DNA of 64,000 nucleotides. Source: an uncultured Maribacter sp. (lineage in GTDB: Bacteria; Bacteroidota; Bacteroidia; Flavobacteriales; Flavobacteriaceae). This document shows positions 40,887 to 57,720 of the stretch, piece by piece (position 1 is the stretch's first letter; each line of letters begins with the position of its first letter). The notes below the pieces were generated by a model. The model had not been told where the DNA came from, did no database searches, and was given only the letters and a program-made list of their open reading frames with translations. The stretch covers positions 1 to 64,000 of the forward strand of contig NZ_CANMBB010000003.1 of the NCBI RefSeq assembly GCF_947495965.1, given 5' to 3'. The position numbers and the translations under genes were made by a program.

Positions 40887-41194
40887 TACTTATATTTTGC
40901 AATTTTGTTTTCTTCGTCTTCTAATATTTTTTTTAACTGACGTTCTTCCCAATTTTTAAAGAACCTTGGGAGTTTATTAAAAATAATTAATCCTTTAAAA
41001 AGTATAATAAATACCCAAATAACTGGCCCGATCATTACTAACCAACTCCATTTTTCTGGCGTTCCAATGTTTATTAAATAAACTCTAAACCAAGACAAAC
41101 AAATGGTACCTAATATTGCAAATACAATAAGAATATACCAATGCTTAACAGCCTTCACCTTTTTCTTGGCTAATTGTAGTTTTTGATTTTCCAT
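40886..41194 (-). CDS. 2TM domain protein (array member 4)
   Basis: A 102-residue 2TM protein with AKKKVKAVKHWYIL, membrane helices at about 18-38 and 49-70, and NWEERQLKKILEDEE. It shares length and layout with member 5 and is probably a recent tandem duplicate. Both ends overlap neighbours by one base. Confidence 0.85.
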   Translation of the reverse strand: MENQKLQLAKKKVKAVKHWYILIVFAILGTICLSWFRVYLINIGTPEKWSWLVMIGPVIWVFIILFKGLIIFNKLPRFFKNWEERQLKKILEDEENKIAKYK

Positions 41195-41532
41195 TATCTA
41201 AATTTTTCAGATTGTCTACGGTCTTCGTCCATAAACTTTTTAATTTGCTTTTCTTCCCAATCTTTACCAAACAAAGGATTTAGAGAAAATACTTTTATGG
41301 TATGAAAAAACAACCCTATTCCCCAAAATATCCATGTAGCAAAAGTTCCAAAGTCAAAGAAAGCTTCACTAAAGGTTTCTCCGTTATTTATACCTCCTAT
41401 TACCTTAGCTACCGATATAAAGATATTTACTCCTATATATGCTGTTAGATGCCCGTAATATCCTTTTAAATCGGCTACTCGTTTTTTAGCTTTGCGTAGC
41501 TTTTCTCTTTGACTTCCCTCTTTTATTTCCAT
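41194..41532 (-). CDS. 2TM domain protein (array member 3)
   Basis: A 112-residue 2TM protein: AKKRVADLKGYYGHL, two membrane segments (about 26-44 and 66-86) and DWEEKQIKKFMDEDR. The loop between helices is longer and includes GGINNGETFSEAF. Its start lies inside the end of member 2 (10-bp overlap). Confidence 0.85.
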   Translation of the reverse strand: MEIKEGSQREKLRKAKKRVADLKGYYGHLTAYIGVNIFISVAKVIGGINNGETFSEAFFDFGTFATWIFWGIGLFFHTIKVFSLNPLFGKDWEEKQIKKFMDEDRRQSEKFR

Positions 41533-41825
41533 AAGTCATTTTTTTTATCTTCATTCATGTATTCTTTGATCTTGCGCTCTTCCCAACTAGTGCTGAAAAA
41601 AGTGCCATAACCAAAAACTTTAATAGCCTGAAAAACCAGCCCAATACCCCAACCAAAAGCAGCCCATAAAAACCAGGGGTAATTCAATTTGTCTGTATAA
41701 TAATTAATTCCTGCAAGGAAAAGTATAAAAACAAAATAAGACATTAGACTAGTGTAGAATTTCTTCTCCGCTGCAACTCTCTCTTTTGCTTTTAAATATC
41801 TATTTTCTTTATCTAAATCATTCAT
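41523..41825 (-). CDS. 2TM domain protein (array member 2)
   Basis: A 100-residue 2TM protein: AKERVAAEKKFYTSL, two membrane segments (about 24-42 and 50-70), and SWEERKIKEYMNEDK. It follows its own predicted LytTR site (41888-41917), so it probably heads the transcript that includes members 3-6 and the response regulator. Confidence 0.88.
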   Translation of the reverse strand: MNDLDKENRYLKAKERVAAEKKFYTSLMSYFVFILFLAGINYYTDKLNYPWFLWAAFGWGIGLVFQAIKVFGYGTFFSTSWEERKIKEYMNEDKKNDLWK

Positions 41826-41887
41826 AAGGTTGGTTTTTTAATTACATCTAAATTCTAAATAAAGACTTTGAAATTTAAATATTAATT

Positions 41888-41917
41888 ACTGAATTGTTGT
41901 TGTTTGTCTCTGAGTTG
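41888..41917 (-). promoter_or_regulatory. Predicted LytTR site D, upstream of 2TM member 2
   Basis: Read on the minus strand: ACAACTCAG, 12 bp, ACAATTCAG. It is a direct repeat with a 21-bp period, located 63 bp before the start codon at 41825. The corresponding -7 position reads GAATTTAG (41854-41847), a weaker match than in the other three sites. Two 9-mers with this spacing are the form known for LytTR regulators. Confidence 0.75.
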
Positions 41918-41926
41918 TAAAACATA

Positions 41927-42205
41927 CTAAATATCATCTTTCATATATTCAGCAATTTTTCTCTCTTCCCAATTTCTACCTAAAAAAAGATTAAATCCAA
42001 AAATCTTCATCGCATGTAAAATAAGACCTAACCCCCAACCCAAAGCTGGAAAAACAACCCAATAAAATCCTGATGTATAAAAGTTTACTAACCCTAACAT
42101 TGGTATCACCAAACAATATGCTGTTAGGTTAGAGTAAAAACTTTTTTCTTCTTGTACTCTTTCTTTGGCTCTTAAATACCTACCCTCTTGATGTAATGTT
42201 TTCAT
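41927..42205 (-). CDS. 2TM domain protein (array member 1)
   Basis: A 92-residue 2TM protein: AKERVQEEKSFYSNL, two membrane helices (about 26-44 and 50-70), and NWEERKIAEYMKDD. The sequence closely resembles the C-terminal 2TM domain of the neighbouring histidine kinase, including the YCLVIPML text, which suggests one arose from the other. A predicted LytTR site lies 65 bp before its start. Confidence 0.88.
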   Translation of the reverse strand: MKTLHQEGRYLRAKERVQEEKSFYSNLTAYCLVIPMLGLVNFYTSGFYWVVFPALGWGLGLILHAMKIFGFNLFLGRNWEERKIAEYMKDDI

Positions 42206-42269
42206 AATTTTTGTTTTTTTATTTACATCAAATTTCTATAAAAACAGCTTGTTTTCTAAATAGGCTTTA

Positions 42270-42299
42270 CCCAGTTGTTAAGTTCTTAGGACGAACTGT
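42270..42299 (-). promoter_or_regulatory. Predicted LytTR site B, upstream of 2TM member 1
   Basis: Read on the minus strand: ACAGTTCGT, 12 bp, ACAACTGGG. The first half matches the published LytTR half-site [TA][AC][CA]GTTN[AG][TG] exactly. It is placed 65 bp before the start at 42205. A promoter-like GAAATTTG (42236-42229) follows, with its TTTG at the same offset as at sites A and C. Confidence 0.8.
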
Positions 42300-42309
42300 A
42301 AAAATTACA

Positions 42310-43644
42310 TTATTCCTCATCTCCCATATACTCCTTAAGCTTACGCTCTTCCCAGCTTTTACCCCATAAAGGGTTATAACCAAAAGCTTCCATACCATGC
42401 ACAACTAAACCAAAACCCCAACCTAATGTTGGGAAAATAGCCCAAGGAAAATTTGTAGTCCTGTAATTTAAAACTACAAGCATAGGAATTACAATACAAT
42501 ATGCTATTAAATTACCGTAAAAGCCTTTTATAGCTTCTACTCTTTCTTTTGCTTTTTGGTAGCGCTTATCCTCTATATAAGACTCCTGTACTTCCATAGT
42601 TGTAACCTTTTTAGTTAGCATAGGAAGTCTTACCGTAAACTCCATAGTTTCTTTAGATATTTCTACATTTCTATCCGTTAAAATAGCATAGCGTTCTTGA
42701 ATATTTTTTAAACCTACACCGCTACTTTTCTTAACTACTCTTTTCTCCTGTATATTATTTGTAACACATAAGTTACCATCTTCTTCATATACACTAATAG
42801 ATAAGGGTTTTTCTGTAGTTACTATATTATGTTTAACCGCATTTTCTAATAATAACTGTAGAGACAAAGGAATTATCTTTGCTTCTGGGTTTGTACAATT
42901 ATCAGGAATTTCTAAAATAATACTATCCTCAAATCGCATTTTTAGAAGCTTTATATATGTTTTGGCAAATTGTAGTTCTTCATCTACAGAAACTAAATCT
43001 TTATTTTTCTGCTCTAATACATATCTATACACTTTAGAAAGTGATGTTGTAAATTTTTGTGCTTGGTAAGGGTCTTCTTCTATTAAACTAGTTAATACAT
43101 TTAAACTATTAAACAGAAAATGCGGATCTAACTGGTTTTTTAAAGCATCGAATTTTGCTGATGCCGTTCCAGCAATTATTTTTTGTTCTTTTACTTTATT
43201 TTCTTGCCTATTCTTATAATACCAAATAGCATAAAAAACCAATGAAATAACTATAGAAATTAACATAGACATTCTATACTCTTCTAGATGTTGTCCTCCA
43301 AAAAAGTTCCAAAAAGACAACTTATAAATGCCAACTTCTATAATTAAGTCAGAAACAAACACTCCCAATAAAGAAAATACAACGTTTCCTAAAATAGCTA
43401 TCAAAAATCTTTTTATAGTAAAAAGGTTATTTTTAAAAGCTTTAATATGGTATTCTATCCAATAAGCATTAGCAAAATAAAGCACCAAGGAAAAAATCAT
43501 ATTTTGCCAATACATTCTCCAAGCCATTTCTACATTAAATTCTGGAGAAATGGAACCCGTAATATAATATATAGCAATAAAAACTATATATATTAGAGTA
43601 CCAATAAGAATAGCTCTTCCAAGGTGTTTTAAAAAATTTTGCAT
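42310..43644 (-). CDS. LytS-like sensor histidine kinase with C-terminal 2TM domain
   Basis: A 444-residue kinase. Four membrane segments occupy about residues 1-145. The His_kinase motif DPHFLFNSLNVLTSL is at about 192-206, with the phospho-His in it, and an HATPase region contains LQLLLENAVKHN and SSGVGLKNIQERYAI. After about residue 355 a complete 2TM domain follows (KERVEAIKGFYGNL, then SWEERKLKEYMGDEE). Fusion of a 2TM domain to the kinase, next to free-standing 2TM proteins, suggests that 2TM domains assemble with one another in the membrane and affect kinase output; this is inference. It starts 10 bp after the TPR gene. Confidence 0.93.
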   Translation of the reverse strand: MQNFLKHLGRAILIGTLIYIVFIAIYYITGSISPEFNVEMAWRMYWQNMIFSLVLYFANAYWIEYHIKAFKNNLFTIKRFLIAILGNVVFSLLGVFVSDLIIEVGIYKLSFWNFFGGQHLEEYRMSMLISIVISLVFYAIWYYKNRQENKVKEQKIIAGTASAKFDALKNQLDPHFLFNSLNVLTSLIEEDPYQAQKFTTSLSKVYRYVLEQKNKDLVSVDEELQFAKTYIKLLKMRFEDSIILEIPDNCTNPEAKIIPLSLQLLLENAVKHNIVTTEKPLSISVYEEDGNLCVTNNIQEKRVVKKSSGVGLKNIQERYAILTDRNVEISKETMEFTVRLPMLTKKVTTMEVQESYIEDKRYQKAKERVEAIKGFYGNLIAYCIVIPMLVVLNYRTTNFPWAIFPTLGWGFGLVVHGMEAFGYNPLWGKSWEERKLKEYMGDEE

Positions 43645-43654
43645 CTATTTTTCT

Positions 43655-44278
43655 TTATTTTCCACAATTTTTAGCTACTATTTCTGCTCTGTCTTTTCCC
43701 CAATTAGGATGAAACTCTGACTCTGGCTTAAAGTTAGCAAAAAGTTCCAAAGCACGTTCTACTTCTTTACAGTAAGGCGCAGTATCTTGTCCAAAATATT
43801 TTGCAGATCCCATATCCCATTCTGCTTTAGAAAAAACAACTCTTGGATTATCTGGAGCAATGGCTAATGCTTTTTGGTATAAAGCAACTATTTCTGGAGA
43901 CAATGTCATTCCATAACTAGCGCCATCAAAAACTACATATGCAGTATGTATCATAGCTTGTTGTATTATAATTTCTGGATTATTTGGTGATATTGCTTTG
44001 GCAATATCTACAAACTCTTGTGCTTTTTCTAACTGCTTTACCAGCTTTTCTTTATCCTTTTCCCCAAAAGACGCTACTGTATTTACTTGTGCAGCGTAAT
44101 AAGCCGGCAACCAGTTATCCATTTCTGCTGTAGAAATACGCTCAAAAAGATTAGAAGCCTCGGTAATTTTACCTTCTCCCCAAAATCCAAAAGCTTTTTG
44201 CATTCCTGCCGTATATTGGTCTTGTGCAAAAGTTAGTGCCGAAATAAATACTGCTAAAATTGTAATTAATTTTTTCAT
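43655..44278 (-). CDS. Secreted TPR-like repeat protein
   Basis: A 207-residue exported protein with a signal peptide (about 1-18, ending LTFAQ). Helical repeat text resembles tetratricopeptide repeats (GKITEASNLFERI, EIVALYQKALAIAPDNPRV). It is co-transcribed with the kinase gene (10-bp gap) and may act as a periplasmic partner of the sensor. Function unknown. Confidence 0.8.
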   Translation of the reverse strand: MKKLITILAVFISALTFAQDQYTAGMQKAFGFWGEGKITEASNLFERISTAEMDNWLPAYYAAQVNTVASFGEKDKEKLVKQLEKAQEFVDIAKAISPNNPEIIIQQAMIHTAYVVFDGASYGMTLSPEIVALYQKALAIAPDNPRVVFSKAEWDMGSAKYFGQDTAPYCKEVERALELFANFKPESEFHPNWGKDRAEIVAKNCGK

Positions 44279-44312
44279 GATTGTTCGTTTTTTAATTGTT
44301 GATTTTTATTAA

Positions 44313-44729
44313 TTATAAATTGATGATTTGCTTTACTGTATTCTCTTTTACTTCAAATTTTGCATCTTCCCATTTTGGAGGGCCAAACATAGCAGGAGCG
44401 TTATTAGAACTTCCTGTATCCTCTGAAGGGATTCCTAAAAAATTAGTCTTTAATATTCCATCCATATCTTCATCATGAAAAACCGATATAGCATATATTC
44501 CTTCTGGAATATCTATAAAAGTTGCTACACTCTTTCCTTCCAAAATTTTGGCAACTGCTCCTTTGTACGTTTTTTTAAGCCACAACTCTTCTGAGTTATA
44601 TAGCCCAACAAGTACTTGGCCGTTAGAACTATTAATATCTTGTATCTCTACCTCTATTGTAGTGAGTTTCTCTTGAGCAACAACTATTGTTGCCACTAAT
44701 ACGAATACGATGGTAATAATTTTTTTCAT
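44313..44729 (-). CDS. DUF2141 domain secreted protein
   Basis: A 138-residue protein from the ATG at 44729, which places the signal peptide at the start (MKKIITIVFV, ending VVAQ). The DUF2141 beta fold follows: NSSNGQVLVGLYNSEELWLK, IPEGIYAISVFHDEDMDG, and LGIPSEDTGSSNNAPAMFGP. DUF2141 proteins are exported, of unknown function, and often flank LytTR systems in flavobacteria. It heads the minus-strand operon and has a predicted LytTR site 68 bp upstream. Confidence 0.88.
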   Translation of the reverse strand: MKKIITIVFVLVATIVVAQEKLTTIEVEIQDINSSNGQVLVGLYNSEELWLKKTYKGAVAKILEGKSVATFIDIPEGIYAISVFHDEDMDGILKTNFLGIPSEDTGSSNNAPAMFGPPKWEDAKFEVKENTVKQIINL

Positions 44730-44796
44730 GATGCATGTTTTTTTGATTAACACTTCAAAGATGAAGCAATCCTACACCATACATAAAAAAGAAAGA

Positions 44797-44826
44797 CTGA
44801 ACTGTTATATTACAGTACCCAATTGT
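44797..44826 (-). promoter_or_regulatory. Predicted LytTR site A, upstream of DUF2141
   Basis: Read on the minus strand: ACAATTGGG, 12 bp, ACAGTTCAG. The second half matches the published LytTR half-site consensus exactly. It lies 68 bp before the start at 44729. The -7-like CATCTTTG (44763-44756) has its TTTG at the same 38-bp offset as at sites B and C. This site would give positive autoregulation of the kinase operon. Confidence 0.8.
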
Positions 44827-44850
44827 ATAACTTAAAGAATTACTAGAAAC

Positions 44851-45834
44851 TTATAGCTTATGATATGCCTGTAGTATGTTTTCTATTTTTTGTTCTTCTT
44901 CTGGACTAATTACTTTATGCTCTGGATTAGCATGAAACCAATTAATAGTTTTTACAATACCTTCTGAGAAAGGAATAGTTGCTTTAAAACCAGGAACAAA
45001 CATTTTTATTTTACTATTATCAAATATTACACTTTCTGCTTTATCTGCTAACAAAGTTCCAGTAAAAGAAGGCTCTACTTTACAAATAAAGTCCGAAGCT
45101 ATATGAACAATATTAGCTTCTTTCCCTAATGCATTTGCCAAAATCTTATAAATCATATTCCAACTTAGTATTTCATCCGAAGTTATATGAAAAGCATGCC
45201 CTATAGCTGGCATTAAACCCAAAAGACCAACAAAACCTTTTGCAAAATCACTGGCATGGGTTACCGTCCAGATAGATGTACCATCGCCATGTACAATAAT
45301 TTCTTTCCCTTTTAAAATTCTATCCACAGTATTATAATGTCTAAAACCTCCTATAGCAATAGGAAATACAGTGTCATAGGTTAAAGAAGGGCGTACTATA
45401 GTCATAGGAAAGTCTTCTTCTCTATATGCTTTTTGCAAACGGTCTTCGCACAATATTTTATTACGAGAATACTCCCATGAACTGTTAGAAAGTGGTGTAG
45501 ACTCTGTTATTACAGGGTAACTTAAAGGGGTTTGGTAACAAGATGCAGAGCTAATAAAAATATATTGTTTTGTTTTACCTTTAAAAAGAGCTATGTCTCT
45601 TTCTATGTCTTCTGGGGTAAAGGCTATCCAATTTACAACAACATCCCATTCGTGTTTTTGTAATTCTAATAATTCATCTGGTTTATTTATATCTCCAATA
45701 ATAGATTTTACTCCCGCAATATCTACTTTAGAATTCCCTCTGTTTAGAACATATAAATCTATTCCTCTACATGTAGCTAGTTTACTAGATTCTTTACTAA
45801 TATTCCCTGTACCCCCTATAAACAAAACTTTCAT
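44851..45834 (-). CDS. NAD-dependent epimerase/dehydratase family protein
   Basis: A 327-residue extended SDR protein. The NAD-binding start is VLFIGGTGNISKESSKLA (TGxxGxx-like pattern with Asn in the middle), with FISSASCYQTPL near residue 95 as the active-site region and TIVRPSLTYDT. Substrates are likely nucleotide sugars or plant-isoflavone-like compounds. It sits between the LytTR operon and an Lrp gene, with no obvious functional link. Confidence 0.85.
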   Translation of the reverse strand: MKVLFIGGTGNISKESSKLATCRGIDLYVLNRGNSKVDIAGVKSIIGDINKPDELLELQKHEWDVVVNWIAFTPEDIERDIALFKGKTKQYIFISSASCYQTPLSYPVITESTPLSNSSWEYSRNKILCEDRLQKAYREEDFPMTIVRPSLTYDTVFPIAIGGFRHYNTVDRILKGKEIIVHGDGTSIWTVTHASDFAKGFVGLLGLMPAIGHAFHITSDEILSWNMIYKILANALGKEANIVHIASDFICKVEPSFTGTLLADKAESVIFDNSKIKMFVPGFKATIPFSEGIVKTINWFHANPEHKVISPEEEQKIENILQAYHKL

Positions 45835-45873
45835 ACCCTAACTACTTTATTTTTACTATTTTCTTTTCAGTGA

Positions 45874-46335
45874 TTACATAGGAACCGCATAAGATTGTTT
45901 TATAACTCCTATAACAAAAGTACTATGAGCACTTCCTATATTTTCTATATCTCCCAAACTATTAATAACAAAATCTTGATAATGTTTCATGTCCTTTACC
46001 ATTATCTTTAACTTAAAGTCATAGTCGCCAGAAATATTATAACACTCTGTTACCTCTTTTAATGCAACAATATCTTCCACAAATTTATTACCAATTGCCT
46101 TGGTATGCTGCTTTAGTGTAATATTACAAAAAACAATGAGTTCTCTATTCAATTTATCAGCATTTAATAAAGCTACATATTGCTTAATATATCCTTCCTT
46201 TTCCAATTTCCTAACACGTTCATACACTGGTGTAGGAGACAAATTTACCAAAGCTGCTAGCTCTTTTGTGGTAACATTAGAATTTTCTTGAAGGTGTTTT
46301 AACAATTGAATATCGGTTACATCTAAATTTTCCAT
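45874..46335 (-). CDS. Lrp/AsnC family transcriptional regulator
   Basis: A 153-residue regulator. The N-terminal helix-turn-helix (about residues 20-60) has VTTKELAALVNLSPTPVYERV and KLEKEGYIKQYVA. The C-terminal RAM domain (about 65-145) includes VTECYNISGDYDFKLKIMV. It is transcribed divergently from metE, which makes control of methionine synthesis in response to an amino acid plausible. Inference only. Confidence 0.9.
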   Translation of the reverse strand: MENLDVTDIQLLKHLQENSNVTTKELAALVNLSPTPVYERVRKLEKEGYIKQYVALLNADKLNRELIVFCNITLKQHTKAIGNKFVEDIVALKEVTECYNISGDYDFKLKIMVKDMKHYQDFVINSLGDIENIGSAHSTFVIGVIKQSYAVPM

Positions 46336-46490
46336 AGATAAATTCTCTTTGAAGGTTTATATTTTATCTTAATAATAAAAATTACATCTTCAAAAATACC
46401 ACTTTGTAGTTAAATAATCTTATTTAAAAACATTATAAAGGATAAATAATCTTTACTTATAGATTTGCAAAGAATTTATATCTACACATA

Positions 46491-48815
46491 ATGAAAACTA
46501 CAAATTTAGGATACCCAAGAATAGGAAGTAAAAGAGAATTAAAAAAGTCTTTAGAAAATTACTGGTCTGGCAAATCTTCTTTAGGTTCTCTCTTATTAAC
46601 TGCAAAAAACATTAGACATCAAAATTGGATTTTACAAAAAGAAAAAGGGATAGATATTATTCCCTCTAACGACTTTTCTCTATACGATCAAGTATTAGAC
46701 CTTAGCTTTACTTTAGGCTGTATCCCAGAAAGGTATTCTGCCATTAAAAACAACCCAAACTTTGCTAAACAGGACCTTTATTTTGCAATGGCAAGAGGGC
46801 ATCAAAAAAATAATATTGATGTTACTGCTTTAGAAATGACAAAATGGTTTGATACAAATTACCATTACCTAGTACCGGAGTTTACAAAAGACCAAACTTT
46901 TTTAGTTTATGATTCTAAAATAGTGGATGAATACAAAGAAGCCTTAGAAATAGGTATAAAAACAAAGCCTGTTATTCTTAGCCCTGTATCTTTTTTGCTA
47001 TCTGGTAAAGAAAAAGAAGATGGTTTTCATAGGATAAATTTACTAGAGAAGTTACTTCCTGTTTATGAAACTATTATACAAGAATTGGTAAATTTAGGAG
47101 TAGAATACATACAGTTGGATGAGCCTTACTTAGCTACAAATTTATCTAATAAAGAACAAGAAGCGATACAAAACACATATCAAAGATTTACAAGTGCTTT
47201 TCCTAACTTAAAAATAGTTATTGCCAATTATTTTGATTGTTATGGCGATAATTTAGAAACTGCACTTTCTTTACCTGTACATACCTTACAAATAGATTTG
47301 GTACGTTGCCCGCTGCAACTTGATGACATTTTGCAATCTGGAAAACTACAAGAAAAAACGCACTTATCTTTAGGAGTTGTAGATGGCAGGAATATTTGGA
47401 AAAATAATTTTGACGCCTCTTTAAATCTTATTCAAAAAGCAATAGATGCTATTGGTAAGGAGCGTATTCTTATTTCTCCTTCCTGTTCCCTACTCCACTC
47501 CCCATGCGATTTAGATGTAGAAACAAATTCAAAAAATCTAAGCAAAGAGGTAAAACAATGGCTAGCATTTGCAAAACAAAAACTGGAAGAAGTTACCATA
47601 TTAAAACAGTTAGCAAATCAAGAAAATTTAGAAATAAGTTTAGTAAAACTACATGAAAACACTAAAATTCATGAGTTTAAAAAAACCACTTCTTTAATTC
47701 ATAATCCTATTGTAAAAGAGCGTGTAAAAGCACTTACAGAAAAAGACTCGAAAAGAGAGAATCCTTTTTCTGTTCGTCAAAAACTTCAGAAAACCGCATT
47801 AAAATTACCTTTATTCCCTACAACTACCATTGGGTCTTTTCCGCAAACAAAAGAGGTACGTAGCTGGAGAGCAAAGCATAAAAAAGGAACTATTAATGCT
47901 AAAGAATATCAAAATTTACTAGAAAAAGAAACTAAAGAAACCATACAATTCCAAGAAGAAGCAGGCTTAGATGTTCTAGTGCATGGCGAGTTTGAACGCA
48001 ATGATATGGTGGAGTATTTTGGAGAACAACTAAATGGTTTTGCTTTTACACAATTTGGCTGGGTACAAAGTTATGGTAGCCGTTGTGTAAAACCCCCTAT
48101 TATTTATGGCGATGTTTCTAGAGAAAACCCAATGACAGTAAAATGGTCTTCTTATGCACAATCTTTAACCAAAAAGCCAGTAAAAGGGATGCTTACAGGC
48201 CCAGTTACTATACTACAATGGTCTTTTGTTCGTAATGACCAAGCTCGTTCCAAAACGGCTACACAAATTGCATTAGCTATTAGAGATGAAGTGGTAGACT
48301 TAGAAAAAGCTGGCTTACAAATTATACAGATAGATGAACCTGCTATAAGAGAAGGGTTACCATTACGAAAAGAAGATTGGAAAACATATTTAAACTGGGC
48401 AATAAAAGCCTTTAGAATTTCTGCTAGTGGCGTAAAAGACGAAACCCAAATACATACCCATATGTGTTATTCTGAATTTAATGATATTATAACCGATATT
48501 GCAGATATGGATGCCGATGTAATTACCATTGAATGTTCTAGATCACAAATGGAACTTTTAGACGTTTTTGCCGCTTTTAAATATCCTAATGAAATTGGTC
48601 CTGGTGTGTATGATATTCACTCCCCTAGAGTACCAGAAAAAGAAGAAATGGTTTCTTTAATTAATAAAGCTTCCAAATACATTCCTCTGGAACAATTATG
48701 GATTAATCCAGATTGCGGTTTAAAAACAAGACATTGGGAAGAAACCAAAAAGGCATTAATAGAAATGGTTGCTGCGGCACAAGAATGTAGAGAAAGTATT
48801 TCTGTTTTAGCATAA
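46491..48815 (+). CDS. metE: Cobalamin-independent methionine synthase
   Basis: A 774-residue enzyme with two (beta/alpha)8 barrels. It transfers the methyl group from methyltetrahydropteroyltri-L-glutamate to homocysteine. The N-terminus LGYPRIGSKRELKKSLENYW is typical. The zinc ligands include His657 and Cys659 (HTHMC) and the later Cys in NPDCGLKTR. TAGATTTG at 46460-46467 fits a promoter -7 box. No SAM or B12 riboswitch was recognised in the 155-bp gap before it. A hairpin terminator follows. Confidence 0.95.
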   Translation: MKTTNLGYPRIGSKRELKKSLENYWSGKSSLGSLLLTAKNIRHQNWILQKEKGIDIIPSNDFSLYDQVLDLSFTLGCIPERYSAIKNNPNFAKQDLYFAMARGHQKNNIDVTALEMTKWFDTNYHYLVPEFTKDQTFLVYDSKIVDEYKEALEIGIKTKPVILSPVSFLLSGKEKEDGFHRINLLEKLLPVYETIIQELVNLGVEYIQLDEPYLATNLSNKEQEAIQNTYQRFTSAFPNLKIVIANYFDCYGDNLETALSLPVHTLQIDLVRCPLQLDDILQSGKLQEKTHLSLGVVDGRNIWKNNFDASLNLIQKAIDAIGKERILISPSCSLLHSPCDLDVETNSKNLSKEVKQWLAFAKQKLEEVTILKQLANQENLEISLVKLHENTKIHEFKKTTSLIHNPIVKERVKALTEKDSKRENPFSVRQKLQKTALKLPLFPTTTIGSFPQTKEVRSWRAKHKKGTINAKEYQNLLEKETKETIQFQEEAGLDVLVHGEFERNDMVEYFGEQLNGFAFTQFGWVQSYGSRCVKPPIIYGDVSRENPMTVKWSSYAQSLTKKPVKGMLTGPVTILQWSFVRNDQARSKTATQIALAIRDEVVDLEKAGLQIIQIDEPAIREGLPLRKEDWKTYLNWAIKAFRISASGVKDETQIHTHMCYSEFNDIITDIADMDADVITIECSRSQMELLDVFAAFKYPNEIGPGVYDIHSPRVPEKEEMVSLINKASKYIPLEQLWINPDCGLKTRHWEETKKALIEMVAAAQECRESISVLA

Positions 48816-48831
48816 TACAATCAAGTTTTTT

Positions 48832-48869
48832 AAAAAATGCATCTTACAAATTGTAAGATGCATTTTTTT
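48832..48869 (+). terminator. Strong Rho-independent terminator after metE
   Basis: AAAAAATGCATCTTAC and GTAAGATGCATTTTTT pair perfectly over 16 bp with a 5-base loop, followed by more T. Confidence 0.88.
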
Positions 48870-48897
48870 ATACCTTAAAGTAGTTTAGCTTTGCGCT

Positions 48898-50451: not shown

Positions 50452-50504
50452 TACATTCCTTTTATCCAAACATTAACTGTATCTTCGCCGCTTATTTACA
50501 ATAC

Positions 50505-51812
50505 ATGACATTTAAAGATTTAGGTCTAGCTTTACCTATATTAAAAGCTATAGACGAACAAGGGTATACCAACCCTACTCCTATTCAAGAACAAGCAATT
50601 CCTATTTTACTTCAAAAAAAAGACCTTTTAGGGGTTGCACAAACTGGAACAGGAAAAACTGCAGCTTTTAGTATTCCTATAATTCATCACCTACATAGTA
50701 AGCAAGAACATATAAAAGGAAAAAAACGCGTAAAAGCGCTTATAGTTACTCCAACACGTGAGTTGGCTATACAAATTGGGGAAAATTTTACGGCGTATAG
50801 TAAGTATACAAATGTTAAAAACACGGTTATTTTTGGTGGCGTAAAACAACAAAGACAAGTGAATGCTTTACGCCCAGGTGTAGATGCTTTGATTGCAACT
50901 CCTGGAAGATTATTAGATTTAATGAATCAAAAAATTATCTCACTTAGAGATGTTGAATATGTAGTTCTAGATGAAGCAGACCAAATGCTAGACATGGGGT
51001 TTATTCATGATATTAAAAAGATTATTGCAAAATTACCTGCTAAGAGACAATCTTTATTTTTTTCTGCTACCATGCCAAAAGATATTGTAGAACTTTCTAA
51101 AAGAATATTAGGAGATTTTGAGCGTGTTACTATAAAGCCAAAACAAGCTACAGCAGAAAGAGTTGAGCAAGGTATTTATTTTGTTAGTAAAGCTAATAAA
51201 CCAAAATTACTAATACATTTAATACAAGAAAAACCAGAGGCATCGGTTTTAGTTTTTTCTAGAACTAAGCATGGTGCTAATAAAATTGTTAAGAAACTTG
51301 CGCAAGCAGATATTAATTCTGCAGCCATTCACGGTAACAAATCACAAACAGCAAGACAAAAGGCACTAGGAGCTTTTAAAGAAGGTAAACTTAATGTTCT
51401 TGTTGCTACAGATATTGCTGCACGTGGTATAGATGTAGACGACCTTTCTTTGGTAATAAATTACGATTTACCTAATATTCCAGAAACCTACGTACACCGT
51501 ATTGGTAGAACAGGACGTGCCAGTGCCAGTGGTATTGCTATATCTTTTTGCATGGCAGAAGAACGTGCCTATTTAAAAGATATAGAAAAGTTAATTAAGC
51601 AACAAGTTCCAAGATTGGGAGAACATCCTTTTATGGAAGATGCACAAGAAAACGCCGAAGTTAAACCCCAAAAACCTAGTAACAATAAAACTAGAAATAA
51701 TAATAATAATAATAATAGGCCTTCTAGAAATTCAAATAGAAACCGAAAATCTAACTATAGAGGAAAAAACAATAGAAACTCTAGCAGAAATAATCCTGAT
51801 AAGAGAGATTAA
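50505..51812 (+). CDS. DEAD-box RNA helicase
   Basis: A 435-residue helicase. Motifs include the Q motif (PTPIQEQAIP), Walker A AQTGTGKT, PTRELA, TPGRLLD, DEAD in VLDEADQML, SAT in FFSATMP, and HRIGRTGR. The C-terminal tail (from about 385) is rich in Asn, Arg and Lys, including a run of seven Asn, as in RhlE-type cold-shock helicases with basic tails. The gene likely acts in ribosome assembly or mRNA turnover. Confidence 0.93.
   Translation: MTFKDLGLALPILKAIDEQGYTNPTPIQEQAIPILLQKKDLLGVAQTGTGKTAAFSIPIIHHLHSKQEHIKGKKRVKALIVTPTRELAIQIGENFTAYSKYTNVKNTVIFGGVKQQRQVNALRPGVDALIATPGRLLDLMNQKIISLRDVEYVVLDEADQMLDMGFIHDIKKIIAKLPAKRQSLFFSATMPKDIVELSKRILGDFERVTIKPKQATAERVEQGIYFVSKANKPKLLIHLIQEKPEASVLVFSRTKHGANKIVKKLAQADINSAAIHGNKSQTARQKALGAFKEGKLNVLVATDIAARGIDVDDLSLVINYDLPNIPETYVHRIGRTGRASASGIAISFCMAEERAYLKDIEKLIKQQVPRLGEHPFMEDAQENAEVKPQKPSNNKTRNNNNNNNRPSRNSNRNRKSNYRGKNNRNSSRNNPDKRD
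51696..51716 (+). repeat. (AAT)7 microsatellite in helicase tail
   Basis: Seven AAT units in frame encode seven consecutive Asn residues. A slippage-prone in-frame repeat changes tail length without shifting frame. Confidence 0.9.
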
Positions 51813-51828
51813 AAAAAAATAATTATTT

Positions 51829-51867
51829 AAAAAAAGCCTGTTCTAGCCTATAGAATGGGCTTTTTTT
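51829..51867 (+). terminator. Rho-independent terminator after helicase
   Basis: AAAAAAGCC and GGCTTTTTT form the base of a hairpin containing the further partial pairing TTCTA/TAGAA. A T tract follows. Confidence 0.75.
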
Positions 51868-51992
51868 ATGCATCAGCAACACCCATTAAAAATATTTTAT
51901 CTTTTTTTAGGACCATATGCAACCTATTCTATTTTCTTTTGTCTTTACTAAATATACATTAAAAACATCCATCAAAAAACAACAATTAAATC

Positions 51993-54359
51993 ATGAAGAA
52001 ATTAGGATTACTATTTTTATTTTTCACTTCGCTCCTAAGTGCGCAGGAAAATTTTACGGTCAGCGGGTCTATTACCGATGCCAGTAATGGGGAAACTCTC
52101 TTTGGAGCATCCGTTTTTTTAGAAGGCACTACTATAGGTGCTATTACTAATGAGTATGGCTTTTACTCTATCACTGCTCCTAGCGGAGATTACAATTTAA
52201 TAATCTCTTATGTAGGTTTTTTAGATGTAAAAAAGGAAATTACTCTAAATCAAAATCAAAAAGTAAATTTTGAAATTCAAGAATATGCTACACAGTTAGA
52301 AGAAGTTGTTTTAACAGCAGATGAAAAAGAGCATGTAAACATTAGAAAACCAGAAATGAGCGTTAACAAGCTTAACATTAAAACGGTAAAACGTATGCCT
52401 GTGGTTTTAGGAGAGGTAGATATTATAAAGTCTCTACAAATGCTCCCTGGAGTTACTAATAATGGAGAAGGCTCTAGTGGCTTTAACGTACGTGGAGGCG
52501 CGGCAGACCAGAATTTAGTGTTGCTAGATGAAGCCATTATTTACAATACATCGCATATGTTAGGTTTCTTTTCGGTCTTTAATGCAGATGCTATTAAAGA
52601 CATTAAACTACACAAAGGAGGTATTCCTGCTAAGTTTGGCGGTAGAACTTCCTCTGTATTAGATGTAAGACAAAAAGACGGTAATAATAAAAGGTTCGCT
52701 GCCTCTGGAGGAATTGGTCTTATTTCTAGTAGATTGGCATTAGAAGGACCTTTATTTAATAAAAAAGGGTCTTTTCTTGTTGCTGGTAGATCCTCTTATG
52801 TAAATGTATTTTTAGCTGCATTTAATAACAAAAATAGAGTTGGTTTTTACGATTTAAACCTAAAAACACATTATAACTTTAATGAAAATAATAAGCTTTT
52901 TCTTTCTGGATATTTTGGAAGAGACACATTTAAATTAGGGAGTAGTTTTGAAACTACCTATGGTAATGCTTCTGGAAACTTACGTTGGAATCATATTTTT
53001 AATGAGCGTTTATTTTCTAATTTATCTTTAATCTATAGCCGTTATGATTACGACATTGGAATAAGAGTTGCCGAGTTTAACTGGATTTCTGCAATAGATA
53101 ACTACAATGCTAAGTACGATTTAAAATACTACTTCAATGATAAATTTAAATTAGACTTTGGTGCTAGTGCCATTTATTATGACTTTAATCCAGGCGCCAT
53201 AGAACCTACCTCTAGTGAATCCTCTGTAAATGCTAGGCAATTAGATAAAAAGAAAGCCTTAGAAACTGGTGTATATATTAATGCAGAACACAAACTTACA
53301 GATAAGTTAACCGCGCAATATGGTTTACGCTACAGCTATTTTAACCGTTTAGGAGGGCAAGCTTTAAATAATTATGCAAATAACCAGCCTGTTGCTTACA
53401 ACCCTGTTTTAGGCATTTATGAACGTGGTGAGGAAATAGGAGAAACTAATTATGATAACGGAGAATCTATTGCAAATTATGGCAATTTAGAACCTAGAGT
53501 TTCTATGGCTTATGAGTTAAACGAAAACTCCTCTGTAAAATTAGGATATTCTAGAGTTGCACAGTATATACATTTATTATCTAACACAACTTCGGTTACT
53601 CCATTAGATGTTTGGACACCGAGTGGCAAATATGTAAAACCGCAATTGTCTGACCAATTTGCTATAGGCTATTTTAAAAATTTTAAAGATGAAGCATATT
53701 CTTTAGAAGTAGAGTCTTATTACAAAACCACCGATAACCGTATAGATTACATAGATGGTTCCGATTTAATTGGGAACAACACCATAGAAACAGAAATTTT
53801 AAATAGTGAATCTAGAGCGTACGGATTAGAGGTTTTATTTAGAAAAAATACTGGTAAATTTACTGGATGGGTAGCCTATACACTTTCTAGATCAGAACAA
53901 AGAACAGATGATGCCAATGCTGGAGGCCCTGGAATTAGTAATGGTGAGTGGTACAAAACACCTTACGATCGTTTGCATGATTTATCTATTACAGGATCTT
54001 ACAAAGCATCAGACAAATGGACTTTTAGTTCTAACTTTGCTTTACAATCGGGAAGGCCTGTTACCTATCCTAACGGTCAATACCAATACGAAGGGCTTTC
54101 TATTGCAAGTTACTCTAATAGAAACTCGGACAGGTTACCATTGTACCACCGCCTAGATATATCGGCTACATATACGCCAAACAAAAAACCAAATAGAAGA
54201 TGGAAAGGCGAATGGGTTTTTGGAATCTATAATGTCTACAATAAGAAAAATGCGGCTTCTATCTCTTTTGGTCAAAACACAGAAACTGGTGTAAATGAAG
54301 CTACAAGAACTGCCATCTTTGGAATGGTACCATCTGCAACCTATAACTTTAAATTTTAA
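51993..54359 (+). CDS. TonB-dependent receptor with carboxypeptidase-like N-terminal domain
   Basis: A 788-residue outer membrane receptor. Signal peptide about 1-18; carboxypeptidase-like regulatory beta domain about 22-105 (GATVFLEGT-like text reads GASVFLEGTTIGAITNEYGF); plug domain about 115-225 (MLPGVTNNGEGSSGFNVRGG); then a 22-stranded barrel ending in Phe (YNFKF). It overlaps no gene and is followed 4 bp later by a DUF4249 lipoprotein, the common Bacteroidota receptor pair. Ligand unknown. Confidence 0.92.
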   Translation: MKKLGLLFLFFTSLLSAQENFTVSGSITDASNGETLFGASVFLEGTTIGAITNEYGFYSITAPSGDYNLIISYVGFLDVKKEITLNQNQKVNFEIQEYATQLEEVVLTADEKEHVNIRKPEMSVNKLNIKTVKRMPVVLGEVDIIKSLQMLPGVTNNGEGSSGFNVRGGAADQNLVLLDEAIIYNTSHMLGFFSVFNADAIKDIKLHKGGIPAKFGGRTSSVLDVRQKDGNNKRFAASGGIGLISSRLALEGPLFNKKGSFLVAGRSSYVNVFLAAFNNKNRVGFYDLNLKTHYNFNENNKLFLSGYFGRDTFKLGSSFETTYGNASGNLRWNHIFNERLFSNLSLIYSRYDYDIGIRVAEFNWISAIDNYNAKYDLKYYFNDKFKLDFGASAIYYDFNPGAIEPTSSESSVNARQLDKKKALETGVYINAEHKLTDKLTAQYGLRYSYFNRLGGQALNNYANNQPVAYNPVLGIYERGEEIGETNYDNGESIANYGNLEPRVSMAYELNENSSVKLGYSRVAQYIHLLSNTTSVTPLDVWTPSGKYVKPQLSDQFAIGYFKNFKDEAYSLEVESYYKTTDNRIDYIDGSDLIGNNTIETEILNSESRAYGLEVLFRKNTGKFTGWVAYTLSRSEQRTDDANAGGPGISNGEWYKTPYDRLHDLSITGSYKASDKWTFSSNFALQSGRPVTYPNGQYQYEGLSIASYSNRNSDRLPLYHRLDISATYTPNKKPNRRWKGEWVFGIYNVYNKKNAASISFGQNTETGVNEATRTAIFGMVPSATYNFKF

Positions 54360-54363
54360 TACG

Positions 54364-55200
54364 ATGAAATTATATATAAAACTCATAACTCTACTAACCA
54401 TAAGTTTATTCATCTCATGTGAAGATGTAATTGATGTAGAAGTACAAAACGCTCCAGAAAGGCTGGTTATTGAAGCATCTTTAGACTGGGAAAAAGGAAC
54501 AACAGGTGCTAACCAAACCATAAAGTTATCTACCTCATCTACTTATTTTGCAGAAGACCAAAGTTCCCCTGTAACTAATGCTACGGTAAAGGTTACGAAT
54601 ACAAATACCACCGAAGAATTCATTTTTGAAAATCAAAATAATGGGGATTATACCATTACCACATTTAATCCAATTATTGAGAATACATATACGCTAGAAG
54701 TTATATACAATAATGAAGTATACACTGCTACAGAAAATTTAAAACCTGTAACCGATATTACTAGAGTAGAACAGTCTACAGAAAAAGGGTTTGATGATGA
54801 AGTACTAGAGGTGGTTGCATATTTTAATGACCCAGCAGACGAAGACAATTTTTATCTATTTAGATTTAAAGAAGATGGAGATTTATTTTATGAATTAGAA
54901 GATGGTGATGATGAGTTTATTAATGGAAATGAAGTAGACTGGTGGTATGAAAAAGATGAAGATGATAACCAAGGGGAATTTACTGCTGGAGATCGTGTAG
55001 AATTAGAAATGTACGGTATTTCTGAAGCATATTTTAATTACATAAGAACCTTAATAGAACAATCTGAAGGTGTAGGTTTATTTGGCACTACTCCCGTAGC
55101 CTTAAAAGGTAATTGTATAAACCAAACAAATGCCGATAACTATGCGCATGGCTATTTTAGATTAACCCAAGTTGTAAAAACCAATTACACATTTGAATAA
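54364..55200 (+). CDS. DUF4249 family lipoprotein
   Basis: A 278-residue lipoprotein. The ATG at 54364 places the signal at the start (MKLYIKLITLLTISLFISC) with Cys19 as the lipid anchor; the upstream frame from 54295 overlaps the receptor gene. The beta-rich body with acidic stretches is typical of DUF4249. It probably forms a surface lid or substrate-binding partner of the receptor, analogous to SusD. Inference from context. Confidence 0.85.
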   Translation: MKLYIKLITLLTISLFISCEDVIDVEVQNAPERLVIEASLDWEKGTTGANQTIKLSTSSTYFAEDQSSPVTNATVKVTNTNTTEEFIFENQNNGDYTITTFNPIIENTYTLEVIYNNEVYTATENLKPVTDITRVEQSTEKGFDDEVLEVVAYFNDPADEDNFYLFRFKEDGDLFYELEDGDDEFINGNEVDWWYEKDEDDNQGEFTAGDRVELEMYGISEAYFNYIRTLIEQSEGVGLFGTTPVALKGNCINQTNADNYAHGYFRLTQVVKTNYTFE

Positions 55201-55225
55201 TATTTTTTTGGTTTTTTTTAATGGT

Positions 55226-55256
55226 AAGGGAGTAGCCTAGTTGCTACTCCCTTTTT
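55226..55256 (+). terminator. Rho-independent terminator after DUF4249 gene
   Basis: AAGGGAGTAGC and GCTACTCCCTT pair perfectly around a 6-base loop, followed by TTT. The remaining 200 bp up to the convergent receptor gene hold no visible gene. Confidence 0.85.
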
Positions 55257-55457
55257 ATATTTTATATTATTTCTTAAAAAAAGAAATTAAAATTTTATTT
55301 AGCCCTTTAGCATGTGTAATATAATGTTTGGCTGTTCTTTACTTTTACACCTTAAAAAATGCTAATTATGACATAATAATTTTAAAAAAATTGTGAAATA
55401 GTAATTAATACTACCATTTTAAAACAGAAAAGAATGTCCGCTTATTGGTTAAAGTTA

Positions 55458-57620
55458 TTACAGATTATCTAATTGATTACTTTTTTTGTCTTTACTAATA
55501 GTCCAAAAGAAACCTACAAAAAAGAATGTATCTGCAGTTGGCCTTATAGAACGCCTATTAAATGTTCCGTTTACATCTGGAGCGTTAGCATATTGATAAC
55601 CACTTACATTATTAAACCCTAGAGCATTGTTTACAGATAGATATAAGATTTTTTGAGGCGATATTAAATACGCCCAATTAAAACTTAAATTATTATAGCT
55701 CTTTGTTTTTTCTGCTAAAAAGTTAGAAGAATTAGGATTATCATAAGGCCTACCAGAACCATAGGTATAAGAAGCACCAATTTGTGAACGCCAATCTTCT
55801 ACCCAATATTTAGTTACTAAAGAAAAGTTATGGGTAGGTGCAAAATTGGGGGTCGCTTTTTCTTCAAAATTTAAATAATCTCTTTCCGTATTTAAATAAG
55901 AATAAGAAACCCAGTAATCTAAGTTTTTAATACTCTTATTATCTCTCCAAAATACATCTATACCAGAAGCGTAACCACTTCCTAAATTGTTATACGTACT
56001 ATTAAACATGGGCATATCTGTATCATACTTTACTAAATTTTTATAGTCTTTATAGTATGCTTCTGCCCTAAAAGTTTTTCCATCATTTAAATATTGGTAA
56101 TTAAATATGTAATGTGCCGTTTTTTCAGATTTTAAATTATCCTCAAACTTTAAAAAATTGGTTTGTGGGTTTTGATAAAAATCGCCATAGGCCAAAGAAA
56201 ATTGCCCTTTATCACTACTCTTATACGCTAAGGATACTCTTGGAGAGACCTTAAAATCTTTCAACGTTTTAGAATACTCTCCTCTTACTCCTACTTTCAT
56301 TGCTAGCTTATTGCTAAAAAAAATATCGGCCTCCGAAAACACACCAGATAAATTCTCTTTTAAACCACTAGTAAAAGCAGTCCCACTTTCTTCCGTAAAA
56401 ATATCTTCATAATCTGTACTAAAATATTCTGCTCCAAAGTGTAACTGAAACCTACTACTAAAACTCTTTTTCACCTTTACTTTTACATGTGATGCTGTTT
56501 CCTCCGCATCTATCTTATTGGTTAAAATTCCTATTTTATTTTTGTCTGATGAAATACTAGCTCCAGAAGTAATGGTCCACTCGTTCTCTAAAAAATGCTT
56601 GTAAGAGGCATTTACGTATAAATTGTTATTTTTTAATTGAAAAGGAACATAGTCTTCATAATTTACATCCTCTTGCTCAATATCTAAATTACTATGGTTA
56701 AACCCTGTATATAATTTAAACATACTTTTATCTGCTTTACTTCTAAAAACTGCTTCACCTGCAATAGATTCATAAGGCTTATTCCAACGTGCCCCTTGAT
56801 TATTAGGAATTATACTTTGGTATGGAGCCAAATTAATATAAGACGTATTAAAACTTAGAGATTGGTTTCCCCAAATCTCGGTATGCCCCAAACCTCCTCC
56901 AACAGACATTAATGAAATATCAGTCTTTTCTTGTTTTGGCATATCTTCTGTATTTAATAACAAAACACTGGATAACGCTTGCCCATATTCTGCAGAATAT
57001 CCTCCAGTACTAAACGTTATTCCTTTAAATAAGAAAGGAGAAAACCTGCCTCTTGTAGGAATGTTATTTGCTGTAGCATTAAAAGGCTGAAAAACTCGTA
57101 AACCATCTATAAAAACCTGAGTTTCTCCTGCGGCACCACCACGAACAAATAATCTACCATCTTCACTAACTGTACTAGTTCCTGGCAAGGTTTGTAATGC
57201 TGCAACAAAGTCTCCTAAAGCGCCTGCAGTGGTAACAACATCTAATGGCTTTAATACCGCTACTTTAGAATTATCGCCTGCCTTAAAAGTCCCCGCAGTT
57301 AACGTTACTCCTGTAAGTTCATTAATGGCTTCACGCATTTTAATACGCATATTTTTAAAATAGGAAACTTCTCCCATTTCATAGTGTGTTTCATAAGAAA
57401 GCGCAGATATAATAAGGGTTTTTGAGCCTTTTAATGTAGTTTCAAAAGAAAAAACTCCTTCTGTATTTGTAGAAGCGCCATCATAGGTACCTTCTAAATA
57501 TACATTGGCACCTACAATAGGATTTCCTTTTTCATTTACTACTTTTCCAGAAATTGTAGTCTGACAGAAAGCAACTGTAGTTGCAAAAAATAAAATAAGA
57601 TTAGTTACTAGTTTTAACAT
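55458..57620 (-). CDS. TonB-dependent receptor, predicted LytTR target
   Basis: A 720-residue outer membrane receptor with signal peptide (about 1-19), carboxypeptidase-like domain (about 22-100; KGNPIVGANVYLEGTYDG) and plug (about 125-230; DGRLFVRGGAAGETQVFIDG). No SusD or DUF4249 partner adjoins. A direct-repeat site of the predicted LytTR type lies 71 bp upstream, like those of the 39470-44729 array. The substrate is unknown. Confidence 0.9.
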   Translation of the reverse strand: MLKLVTNLILFFATTVAFCQTTISGKVVNEKGNPIVGANVYLEGTYDGASTNTEGVFSFETTLKGSKTLIISALSYETHYEMGEVSYFKNMRIKMREAINELTGVTLTAGTFKAGDNSKVAVLKPLDVVTTAGALGDFVAALQTLPGTSTVSEDGRLFVRGGAAGETQVFIDGLRVFQPFNATANNIPTRGRFSPFLFKGITFSTGGYSAEYGQALSSVLLLNTEDMPKQEKTDISLMSVGGGLGHTEIWGNQSLSFNTSYINLAPYQSIIPNNQGARWNKPYESIAGEAVFRSKADKSMFKLYTGFNHSNLDIEQEDVNYEDYVPFQLKNNNLYVNASYKHFLENEWTITSGASISSDKNKIGILTNKIDAEETASHVKVKVKKSFSSRFQLHFGAEYFSTDYEDIFTEESGTAFTSGLKENLSGVFSEADIFFSNKLAMKVGVRGEYSKTLKDFKVSPRVSLAYKSSDKGQFSLAYGDFYQNPQTNFLKFEDNLKSEKTAHYIFNYQYLNDGKTFRAEAYYKDYKNLVKYDTDMPMFNSTYNNLGSGYASGIDVFWRDNKSIKNLDYWVSYSYLNTERDYLNFEEKATPNFAPTHNFSLVTKYWVEDWRSQIGASYTYGSGRPYDNPNSSNFLAEKTKSYNNLSFNWAYLISPQKILYLSVNNALGFNNVSGYQYANAPDVNGTFNRRSIRPTADTFFFVGFFWTISKDKKSNQLDNL

Positions 57621-57690
57621 GACTGTTCGATTTTTTGATTTTGATACTCCAAAAATGCGAACGGCATAGCTCCAAAACGAAATAAGATTA

Positions 57691-57720
57691 CCCAGTTGGG
57701 AATTATGGCTACTGAAATGT
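57691..57720 (-). promoter_or_regulatory. Predicted LytTR site C, upstream of a TonB receptor
   Basis: Read on the minus strand: ACATTTCAG, 12 bp, CCAACTGGG. The second half shares 8 of 9 bases with ACAACTGGG of site B. It lies 71 bp before the start at 57620; the -7-like CATTTTTG (57657-57650) has its TTTG at the same 38-bp offset as at sites A and B. This is the only predicted site outside the array. Confidence 0.7.

Follow-up and report, generated by a model that had tools for sequence, protein, structure and literature searches.

A predicted LytTR two-component regulon acting on its own kinase operon, a 2TM array and a TonB receptor gene in Maribacter and its family

A membrane kinase and a LytTR regulator encoded in the window (the whole 64,000-nucleotide stretch of DNA from an uncultured Maribacter sp. 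analysed here) most probably form a dedicated two-component regulon, in which the kinase acts through the regulator on paired sites before its own operon and before 2TM, TonB receptor and Toastrack genes; we put the probability of this reading at about 0.85. The four paired sites of the window are, as predicted from the sequence, genuine switch sites, and the system very probably turns on its own genes, the 2TM set, the receptor and the lipoprotein. The kinase-regulator system is family-wide, a point that the preliminary description of this DNA had missed.

All four sites lie on the minus strand. Site 1 (44826-44797), a 9-12-9 direct repeat reading ACAATTGGG-N12-ACAGTTCAG, precedes the DUF2141 gene at the start of the kinase operon, site 2 (42299-42270; ACAGTTCGT-N12-ACAACTGGG) lies between the kinase and the first 2TM gene, site 3 (41918-41889; ACAACTCAG-N12-ACAATTCAG) precedes the second 2TM gene and site 4 (57720-57691; ACATTTCAG-N12-CCAACTGGG) the TonB receptor gene. 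The preliminary description had pointed to all four and they do exist, although it had placed the third 1 bp too low (its true position is 41889-41918, minus strand). Its distance of 63-71 bp between site and start codon agrees with the values obtained (proximal edge minus start is 68, 65, 64 and 71 for sites 1-4), and the TTTG that it described as starting exactly 38 bp below the proximal edge in three sites is seen at sites 1, 2 and 4. The LytTR half-site consensus that it quoted suits the sites only in part, as not every half-site fits and most have A, not G, at position 4; the half-sites of the regulon read ACARTYCAT / ACARTTSRG. As in known LytTR operators, where direct repeats of about 9 bp with a spacer of 11-13 bp stand about 10 bp upstream of a -35/-33 element, the spacing is exactly 12 bp and a TTT lies 9 bp below the proximal half-site.

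Half-sites this short in an AT-rich genome invite the explanation that the four sites are chance matches. In the window, 3 MCARYTSRK pairs match perfectly and 4 at no more than 1 mismatch, whereas 60 simulated first-order Markov windows averaged 0.0 and 0.25 such pairs and never exceeded 0 and 1; up to 2 mismatches give 6 pairs against 1.98 expected. Since this motif was derived from the sites themselves, the weight rests on tests in other genomes. On the operon strand of 60 loci of other genomes, seven of them congeners, half-site pairs with up to 1 mismatch occur 90 times at spacing 12 and 0-4 times at each other spacing from 0 to 40, so that the claimed 12-bp separation is the sole peak. 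Moreover, a profile named R1 was built from 93 promoters drawn from outside this genome and its seven congeners, although seven of its source genomes (L057, L058, L060, L061, L072, L076 and L084) still bear the NCBI name Maribacter. In the 3.9-Mb genome its ranks 1-4 are exactly the four window sites, at E-values, rough ones from a shortened calibration, of 2.3e-8 (rank 1, site 2), 2.0e-6 (rank 2), 7.7e-5 (rank 3, site 3) and 0.024 (rank 4, site 4), the genome scans having scored 40-150 of thousands of first-look candidates. With a full-length matrix of the 93 promoters the four sites score 46.8, 45.9, 32.7 and 31.8, and the next place in the window -9.4. Among ten further genomes, none shared with the R1 sources, 22 of the 24 genome-wide matches stand before TonB receptor, DUF2141, TPR, kinase, 2TM or Toastrack genes.

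Within the genus, the sites at the kinase operon start, before the first 2TM gene and before the TonB receptor gene are each present in 8/8 genomes, the TonB counterparts lying 67-72 bp before the start; site 3 (41889) is found in this genome and one congener (G007) only. A site is also present within 1.5 kb upstream of the kinase at every orthologous locus with that much DNA (53/53), and between the kinase and the first 2TM gene at 43/56. Both the LytTR geometry and the three targets named in the preliminary description (kinase operon, 2TM array, TonB receptor) hold in the genus as well as across the family, and its own refuting conditions for a genome scan and for relatives, random scatter and lack of conservation, were checked and did not refute the prediction. 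A homolog of the TonB-dependent receptor (55458-57620, minus strand; 720 aa, PF00593/PF07715/PF13715), for which no solved structure was matched at E 0.001, lies directly upstream of the kinase cluster at 8 of the 60 fetched loci.

A fifth site, present in 8/8 genus genomes, lies beyond the window; it precedes the gene of a Toastrack (DUF2807) lipoprotein that adjoins PadR-PspC. PspC and Toastrack genes stand together there (PF04024, PF22744, PF10988, PF13349, PF03551), and the lipoprotein has a weak NCBIfam match to LiaG (22 bits, cut-off 285). In this genome the TonB and Toastrack sites reach R1 E-values of only 0.024 and 0.19; the case for both leans on conservation. The fifth site, the altered -7 box and the 2TM domain of the kinase, the last two treated below, were absent from the preliminary description.

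Across 120 family genomes, one per genus, 94 have both the kinase and an R1 match, 0 the kinase only, 6 R1 only and 20 neither, at cut-offs of E 1e-60 for the kinase and 0.001 for R1 and in a set that may overlap the R1 sources. Fisher's test for this co-occurrence gives 8e-18, a value that overstates certainty, since related genomes do not supply independent promoters. Some kinase-positive genomes have weak R1 matches only (G123, 1.7e-4). Of the six with R1 only, G013 shows clear sites upstream of its Toastrack and DUF2141 genes, but it yielded no kinase at 1e-60 and its best regulator is at most 32% identical; the other five have one R1 match each at 0.001. The match of G068 stands before a diverged kinase accompanied by a 51%-identical regulator, that of G058 has a matrix score of 30.4 and no identified gene, and in G053, G088 and G106 nothing near the match exceeds 8 on the matrix. 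Co-occurrence, the spacing test, the separately trained genome scan and the TonB site of all eight genus genomes contradict chance, whose probability we consider vanishingly small.

The genes of the operon all lie on the minus strand. The DUF2141 gene (44313-44729; 138 aa, PF09912) comes first; in the accessible part of PMC5989583, a link of DUF2141 to carotenoids amounts to co-location with crtG in Sphingomonadales only. It is followed by a TPR-like protein (43655-44278; 207 aa), whose TPR matches are weak and below the Pfam cut-off and whose gene place is conserved, and by the histidine kinase (42310-43644; PF06580 and PF13239), with N-terminal membrane helices, a His_kinase domain and a C-terminal 2TM domain. 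2TM proteins 1 to 6 (41927-42205, 41523-41825, 41194-41532, 40886-41194, 40578-40886 and 40231-40578) match PF13239, the fifth at 24.7 bits against a cut-off of 24.8. The presumed binder, a LytTR response regulator (REC and LytTR; 39470-40225, PF00072 and PF04397), stands last. As expected of a LytTR two-component system, its receiver and LytTR domains score above cut-off and a PF06580 kinase with His and N-box lies nearby, H175 and N268 of the kinase being invariant in 29 sequences. At 0.001, NCBIfam gave no match for the kinase or 2TM protein 1, and the best NCBIfam matches of the regulator, BtsR and LytR, fall far below their cut-offs; among the matches listed, solved structures cover its receiver part (two alignments shown). 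Evolved F. johnsoniae lines are reported, in the available portion of PMC10197871, to carry a LytTR mutation.

From co-occurrence and gene neighbourhood, the adjacent LytTR regulator very likely binds the sites. It is unlikely that most of the binding comes from one of the other eight LytTR proteins instead, with the adjacent regulator serving a different target. The genome does hold nine LytTR domains, G013 has sites and no recognisable regulator ortholog, and at L092 and L103 no LytTR gene was recognised adjoining the 2TM array. Yet the promoter travels with the kinase (94 genomes with both, none with the kinase alone) and stands within 1.5 kb upstream of it at all 53 loci, and a search of about 1.5 kb around each of the eight remaining LytTR genes gave no such promoter. 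Furthermore, K169, K205, E241 and V243 are fixed in 51/51 orthologs of the regulator, and none of these residues is present in the genome's eight remaining LytTR proteins.

The 93 deduplicated promoters align without gaps over 75 bp, with TTT (the -33-like element) in columns 40-42 and the -7 box in columns 64-71. C2, C23, T41, A65, T68 and T69 are invariant, and of these T41, A65, T68 and T69 fall outside the half-sites used to select the promoters. By these columns, promoter 1 has the -7 box CATCTTTG (44756-44763, minus strand, as for the following) and its TTT at 44785-44787; the boxes of promoters 2 and 4 are GAAATTTG (42229-42236) and CATTTTTG (57650-57657). The box of promoter 3, GAATTTAG (41848-41855), sits at the -7 position and is also off consensus at its seventh base. 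The excerpted text of PMC9723704 gives TAnnTTTG as the -7 consensus of the housekeeping sigma factor. The regulon promoters keep AnnTTTG and replace the T by C/G in 87/101, against 14/85 NAnnTTTG sites at other genes of the same loci, a control set that admits any NAnnTTTG up to 130 bp from a gene, including those that occur by chance. This altered first base could be taken to mean that an alternative sigma factor, and no regulator, uses the element as its core promoter. We find this very doubtful, as the half-sites stand well above the -7 box (their edge is 38 bp above TTTG), a direct repeat is the mark of a regulator site, and the TTTG and the T-run at -33 are kept as for the housekeeping sigma factor (PMC9723704, in part). 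The altered box points instead to regulon promoters that would depend on an activator. Transcription starts were mapped in a flavobacterium in PMC9723704, and the data behind that partly available paper may hold starts for regulon promoters.

Autoregulated operons are often repressed, and the regulator might repress these promoters rather than activate them. This is quite unlikely, given that the repeats stay clear of the core promoter, their lower end lying 9 bp above the -33-like element, that the -7 box is systematically off consensus, and that LytTR promoters of the same geometry are activated in Streptococcus mutans according to the accessible sections of PMC6193735.

In the mechanism that we infer, from phosphorelay, binding by this regulator and activation to kinase feedback and an envelope signal, the membrane kinase would phosphorylate the co-encoded LytTR regulator, which would bind as a tandem pair to half-sites 21 bp apart on one helix face, just above the -33-like T element. 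Bound there, it would recruit the housekeeping polymerase to (C/G)AnnTTTG promoters, which, without the T of TAnnTTTG, are proposed to fire poorly alone. It would thereby turn on its own operon (positive autoregulation), the extra 2TM proteins via internal promoters, and the TonB receptor and the Toastrack lipoprotein that adjoins PspC. At 52 of 55 loci, free 2TM protein 1 is closest to the C-terminal 2TM domain of the kinase itself, a resemblance which makes it probable that the 2TM proteins associate with the kinase or titrate it, tuning the response to an envelope signal; this suggests a feedback of the free 2TM proteins on the kinase. Loci carry 1-9 free 2TM copies, in places as repeating promoter-plus-2TM units (e.g. 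L102, L063). An AlphaFold prediction for the kinase (mean pLDDT 72, pTM 0.39) shows membrane, catalytic and 2TM helices, with domain packing too uncertain to reveal the contacts of the 2TM domain. Perhaps, and we hold this only tentatively, the 2TM array consists of self-induced mimics of a kinase subunit that assemble with the kinase and set the gain or shut-off of a PspC/Toastrack-linked envelope-stress response. If this is true, it would be a two-component system with a built-in, copy-number-tuned membrane feedback. It raises the question of why a kinase domain is amplified under the system's own control.

A literature search of open-licence PMC papers found no description of this regulon. 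It would be a near-complete and testable one (operator, promoter type and targets) for a system present in 94 of the 120 sampled genera of the family, with DUF2141, 2TM and TonB receptor genes under one predicted regulator tied to the PspC/Toastrack envelope machinery. Among known systems, the operators of AgrA and ComE have the same two-repeat LytTR geometry and likewise belong to autoregulated operons. Those of HdrR/BrsR type are alike in their repeats, 12-bp spacer, distance of about 10 bp above the -35/-33 element and autoregulated operon; the available text of PMC6193735 describes this promoter geometry, with repeats of 9 bp, and the main text of that source contains "Bacteroidetes" 0 times. 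In contrast to all of these, the present regulon combines ACARTYCAT / ACARTTSRG half-sites with a -7 box of C/G-AnnTTTG in promoters of Bacteroidota, and its targets are TonB receptor, DUF2141, TPR, 2TM and Toastrack genes. The LytTR Regulatory Systems (LRS), as far as PMC6193735 describes them in its accessible sections, likewise encode membrane proteins with a LytTR protein and share the operator geometry. They pair a minimal LytTR regulator with a membrane inhibitor, distinct from two-component systems, whereas the present system has a cognate kinase and a regulator with a receiver domain, and its 2TM proteins are homologs of one of the kinase domains. Kinases of LytS/BtsS type (PF06580) with LytR/BtsR-type regulators have the same domain types, yet here the kinase has a C-terminal 2TM domain. 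Finally, in LiaFSR and PspC-Toastrack modules, the latter described as envelope-stress modules in the accessible part of PMC11237479, a Toastrack (DUF2807/DUF4097) lipoprotein stands beside PadR and a PspC-Toastrack protein as it does at the fifth site, but the predicted regulator here is a LytTR two-component system encoded elsewhere, rather than LiaRS or HAAS-PadR alone.

The four minus-strand direct repeats of the preliminary description are all present in the window, at 44797–44826, 42270–42299, 41889–41918 and 57691–57720; only the third had been misplaced, at 41888–41917. At all four, related 9-mers stand in pairs with 12 bp between them, as described, 64–71 bp before the start codons of, respectively, the DUF2141 gene opening the operon, the first and second free 2TM genes and a TonB receptor gene (55458–57620), and at three of them the TTTG indeed starts exactly 38 bp below the proximal repeat edge. 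A degenerate half-site pair occurs in the window 3 times with no mismatch and 4 times with up to 1, the means in 60 simulated windows being 0.0 and 0.25. Since this motif was derived from the sites themselves, the external tests are the real ones.

The minus-strand gene order is DUF2141, a TPR-like protein, a histidine kinase with its own C-terminal 2TM domain (42310–43644), six free 2TM proteins (40231–42205) and a LytTR response regulator (39470–40225), the TonB receptor lying ~11 kb upstream of the operon. A non-exhaustive scan of genome contigs for two conserved kinase peptide patterns yielded 60 loci, and the kinase exceeds 300 bits in 56 of them, plus the window. The cluster recurring in the family loci is [TonB receptor]-[DUF2141]-TPR-kinase-2TM(n)-LytTR. 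As the receptor is directly upstream of the cluster in 8/60 loci (L078, L088, L089, L090, L092, L093, L094 and L103), the distant receptor of the window has the appearance of a member split off from this unit. At L067:4018-5224, the TonB receptor homolog lying upstream of the cluster falls into three reading-frame pieces; either the gene is broken or the draft sequence is at fault. In L092 and L103, no recognisable LytTR regulator gene was found next to the 2TM array; the gene after the array in L092 resembles, by eye, an amidohydrolase. Within the window, at 45874–48815, an AsnC/Lrp-type regulator is divergent from a cobalamin-independent methionine synthase.

Half-site pairs with up to 1 mismatch were counted at spacings 0–40 on both strands of the 60 loci (753 kb). 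The operon strand holds 90 pairs at spacing 12 and 0–4 at each other spacing, and the opposite strand 7 at spacing 12 and 0–4 elsewhere, four of the opposite-strand pairs preceding separate DUF2141 genes (L082, L090, L092, L103). The same site lies at DUF2141 genes off the operon in L082, L090, L092, L103 and L073, minus strand, making DUF2141 a repeated target.

From 116 promoters, 93 were kept after deduplication and leaving out the window and its congeners, and these align without gaps over 75 columns. Both sets have the consensus ACARTYCAT-N12-ACARTTSRG, a T-run, then (C/G)AnnTTTG at columns 64–71, with T41 of the T-run and A65, T68 and T69 of the -7 box fixed in all 93; columns 31–75 played no part in site choice. 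The Bacteroidota -7 consensus is TAnnTTTG (PMC9723704). The first base of the box is C/G in 87/101 and T in 11/101 regulon promoters (C/G in 53/58 when each locus is counted once), and in NAnnTTTG boxes upstream of 207 other genes of the same loci it is T in 48/85 and C/G in 14/85. An off-consensus, conserved -7 box below a fixed site has the look of an activator-dependent promoter, as far as sequence can suggest it.

The same 93 promoters gave a sequence-only profile, R1, and a full-length matrix. In a whole-genome scan, a kind of check that had been proposed, R1 placed the four sites at ranks 1–4 in the window's own genome (E 2.3e-8, 2.0e-6, 7.7e-5 and 0.024; next place 0.046), 150 of 9,944 first-look candidates having been scored, so that other weak sites may have escaped. 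NCBI assigns the name Maribacter to seven of the genomes from which R1 was built, yet these fall outside the eight genus genomes; their kinases are 61–70% identical to that of the window. Matrix scores of the four sites are 46.8, 45.9, 32.7 and 31.8, the next place in the window scoring -9.4 and the best at the other eight LytTR loci of the genome -12.6.

Conservation in relatives, another proposed check, was likewise borne out for three sites, each found in 8/8 genus genomes. Kinase and receptor orthologs occur in all eight; the receptor site lies 67–72 bp before the receptor with 1–3 mismatches to the motif, the operon-start site has 0–2, and the site in the kinase-2TM gap, ahead of the first free 2TM gene, has none, its 30 bp being identical in L012 and L014. 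Site 41889–41918 was seen in none of the eight but the own genome and G007. By the matrix, which was trained on part of these same loci, all 53 orthologous loci whose sequence extends far enough (1.5 kb) have a site within that distance upstream of the kinase, and 43/56 have one in the kinase-2TM gap; of the 13 loci lacking the latter, 12 have ≤22 bp between the two genes.

A fifth LytTR-type promoter lies 4.8 kb past the window end, at contig position 68787–68861 (L184:4787-4861; R1 E 0.19, matrix 19.9), with both half-sites and CAATTTTA in the -7 place. It stands 65 bp before a DUF2807/Toastrack lipoprotein gene, the end of a DUF4870-PadR-PspC-lipoprotein series, and precedes the corresponding gene in 8/8 genus genomes (matrix 15.3–35.6). 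Separately, L153 (G007, contig C2) carries a promoter copy (matrix 32.9) before a 347-aa gene whose product resembles, by eye, a serine hydrolase of beta-lactamase type; G007 was the one genome with such a copy among the retrieved genus matches.

Across 120 family genomes, one per genus (thresholds: kinase 1e-60, R1 0.001), 94 have both kinase and R1, none the kinase without R1, 6 R1 without the kinase and 20 neither (Fisher 8e-18, a statistic that ignores relatedness of genomes). Of the 6 with R1 and no kinase at threshold, G068 has a diverged kinase without 2TM domain, a 51%-identical regulator and a site upstream. In G013, sites precede genes for DUF2807 and DUF2141, and neither the kinase nor a close regulator was found in that genome; either it truly departs from the pattern or its assembly has a gap. 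G058 shows one site-like match close to one end of a contig of 5.3 kb, with no gene identified, and the R1 matches of G053, G088 and G106 are weak. In a class-wide sample, the kinase was matched at 1e-50 in 26/295 genomes, matches reaching the 2TM end being seen only within the order, in the kinase's own family and a second one.

Ten kinase-positive genomes, the first ten of the 94 listed with the own genome excluded, gave 24 R1 matches at E ≤ 0.001; no contig carrying one of these matches has the same length as an R1 source contig. In 22/24, the match stands no more than 600 bp upstream of a gene for TonB receptor (6), DUF2141 (5, including one weak 16-bit match, L200), TPR (3), free 2TM (3, one of which, in L202, encodes 96 aa), Toastrack lipoprotein (3; no Toastrack genes were included in R1 training) or kinase (2). 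The remaining two, both in G010, precede other genes.

In the LytTR domain of the regulator, K169, K205, E241 and V243 are fixed in 51/51 orthologs and lacking in the genome's eight remaining LytTR proteins, which is compatible with, and no proof of, a conserved DNA specificity. Free 2TM genes number 1–9 recognised per locus, the closest own-locus relative of the kinase 2TM domain is the first free 2TM protein in 52/55 loci, and a Trp-Glu pair near the C-terminus is found in 99–100% of 235 2TM domains, kinase domains included. Moreover, several successive 2TM genes each have their own promoter copy (L102:7360, 7785, 8208; L063:7331, 7735), and thus promoter plus gene looks like the repeating unit of duplication. 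Because of this copy number, the likeness to the first protein, the Trp-Glu pair and the promoter-gene units, we favour 2TM proteins that would form mixed assemblies with the kinase and exert feedback of either sign.

No description of this regulon was found in the open-licence literature searched. LytTR operators of this geometry are already known (PMC6193735), and PspC-Toastrack-PadR modules have been described (PMC11237479). We file the system as a LytTR two-component regulon whose novelty lies in its kinase-domain array, its set of target genes and a promoter form that appears to depend on an activator.
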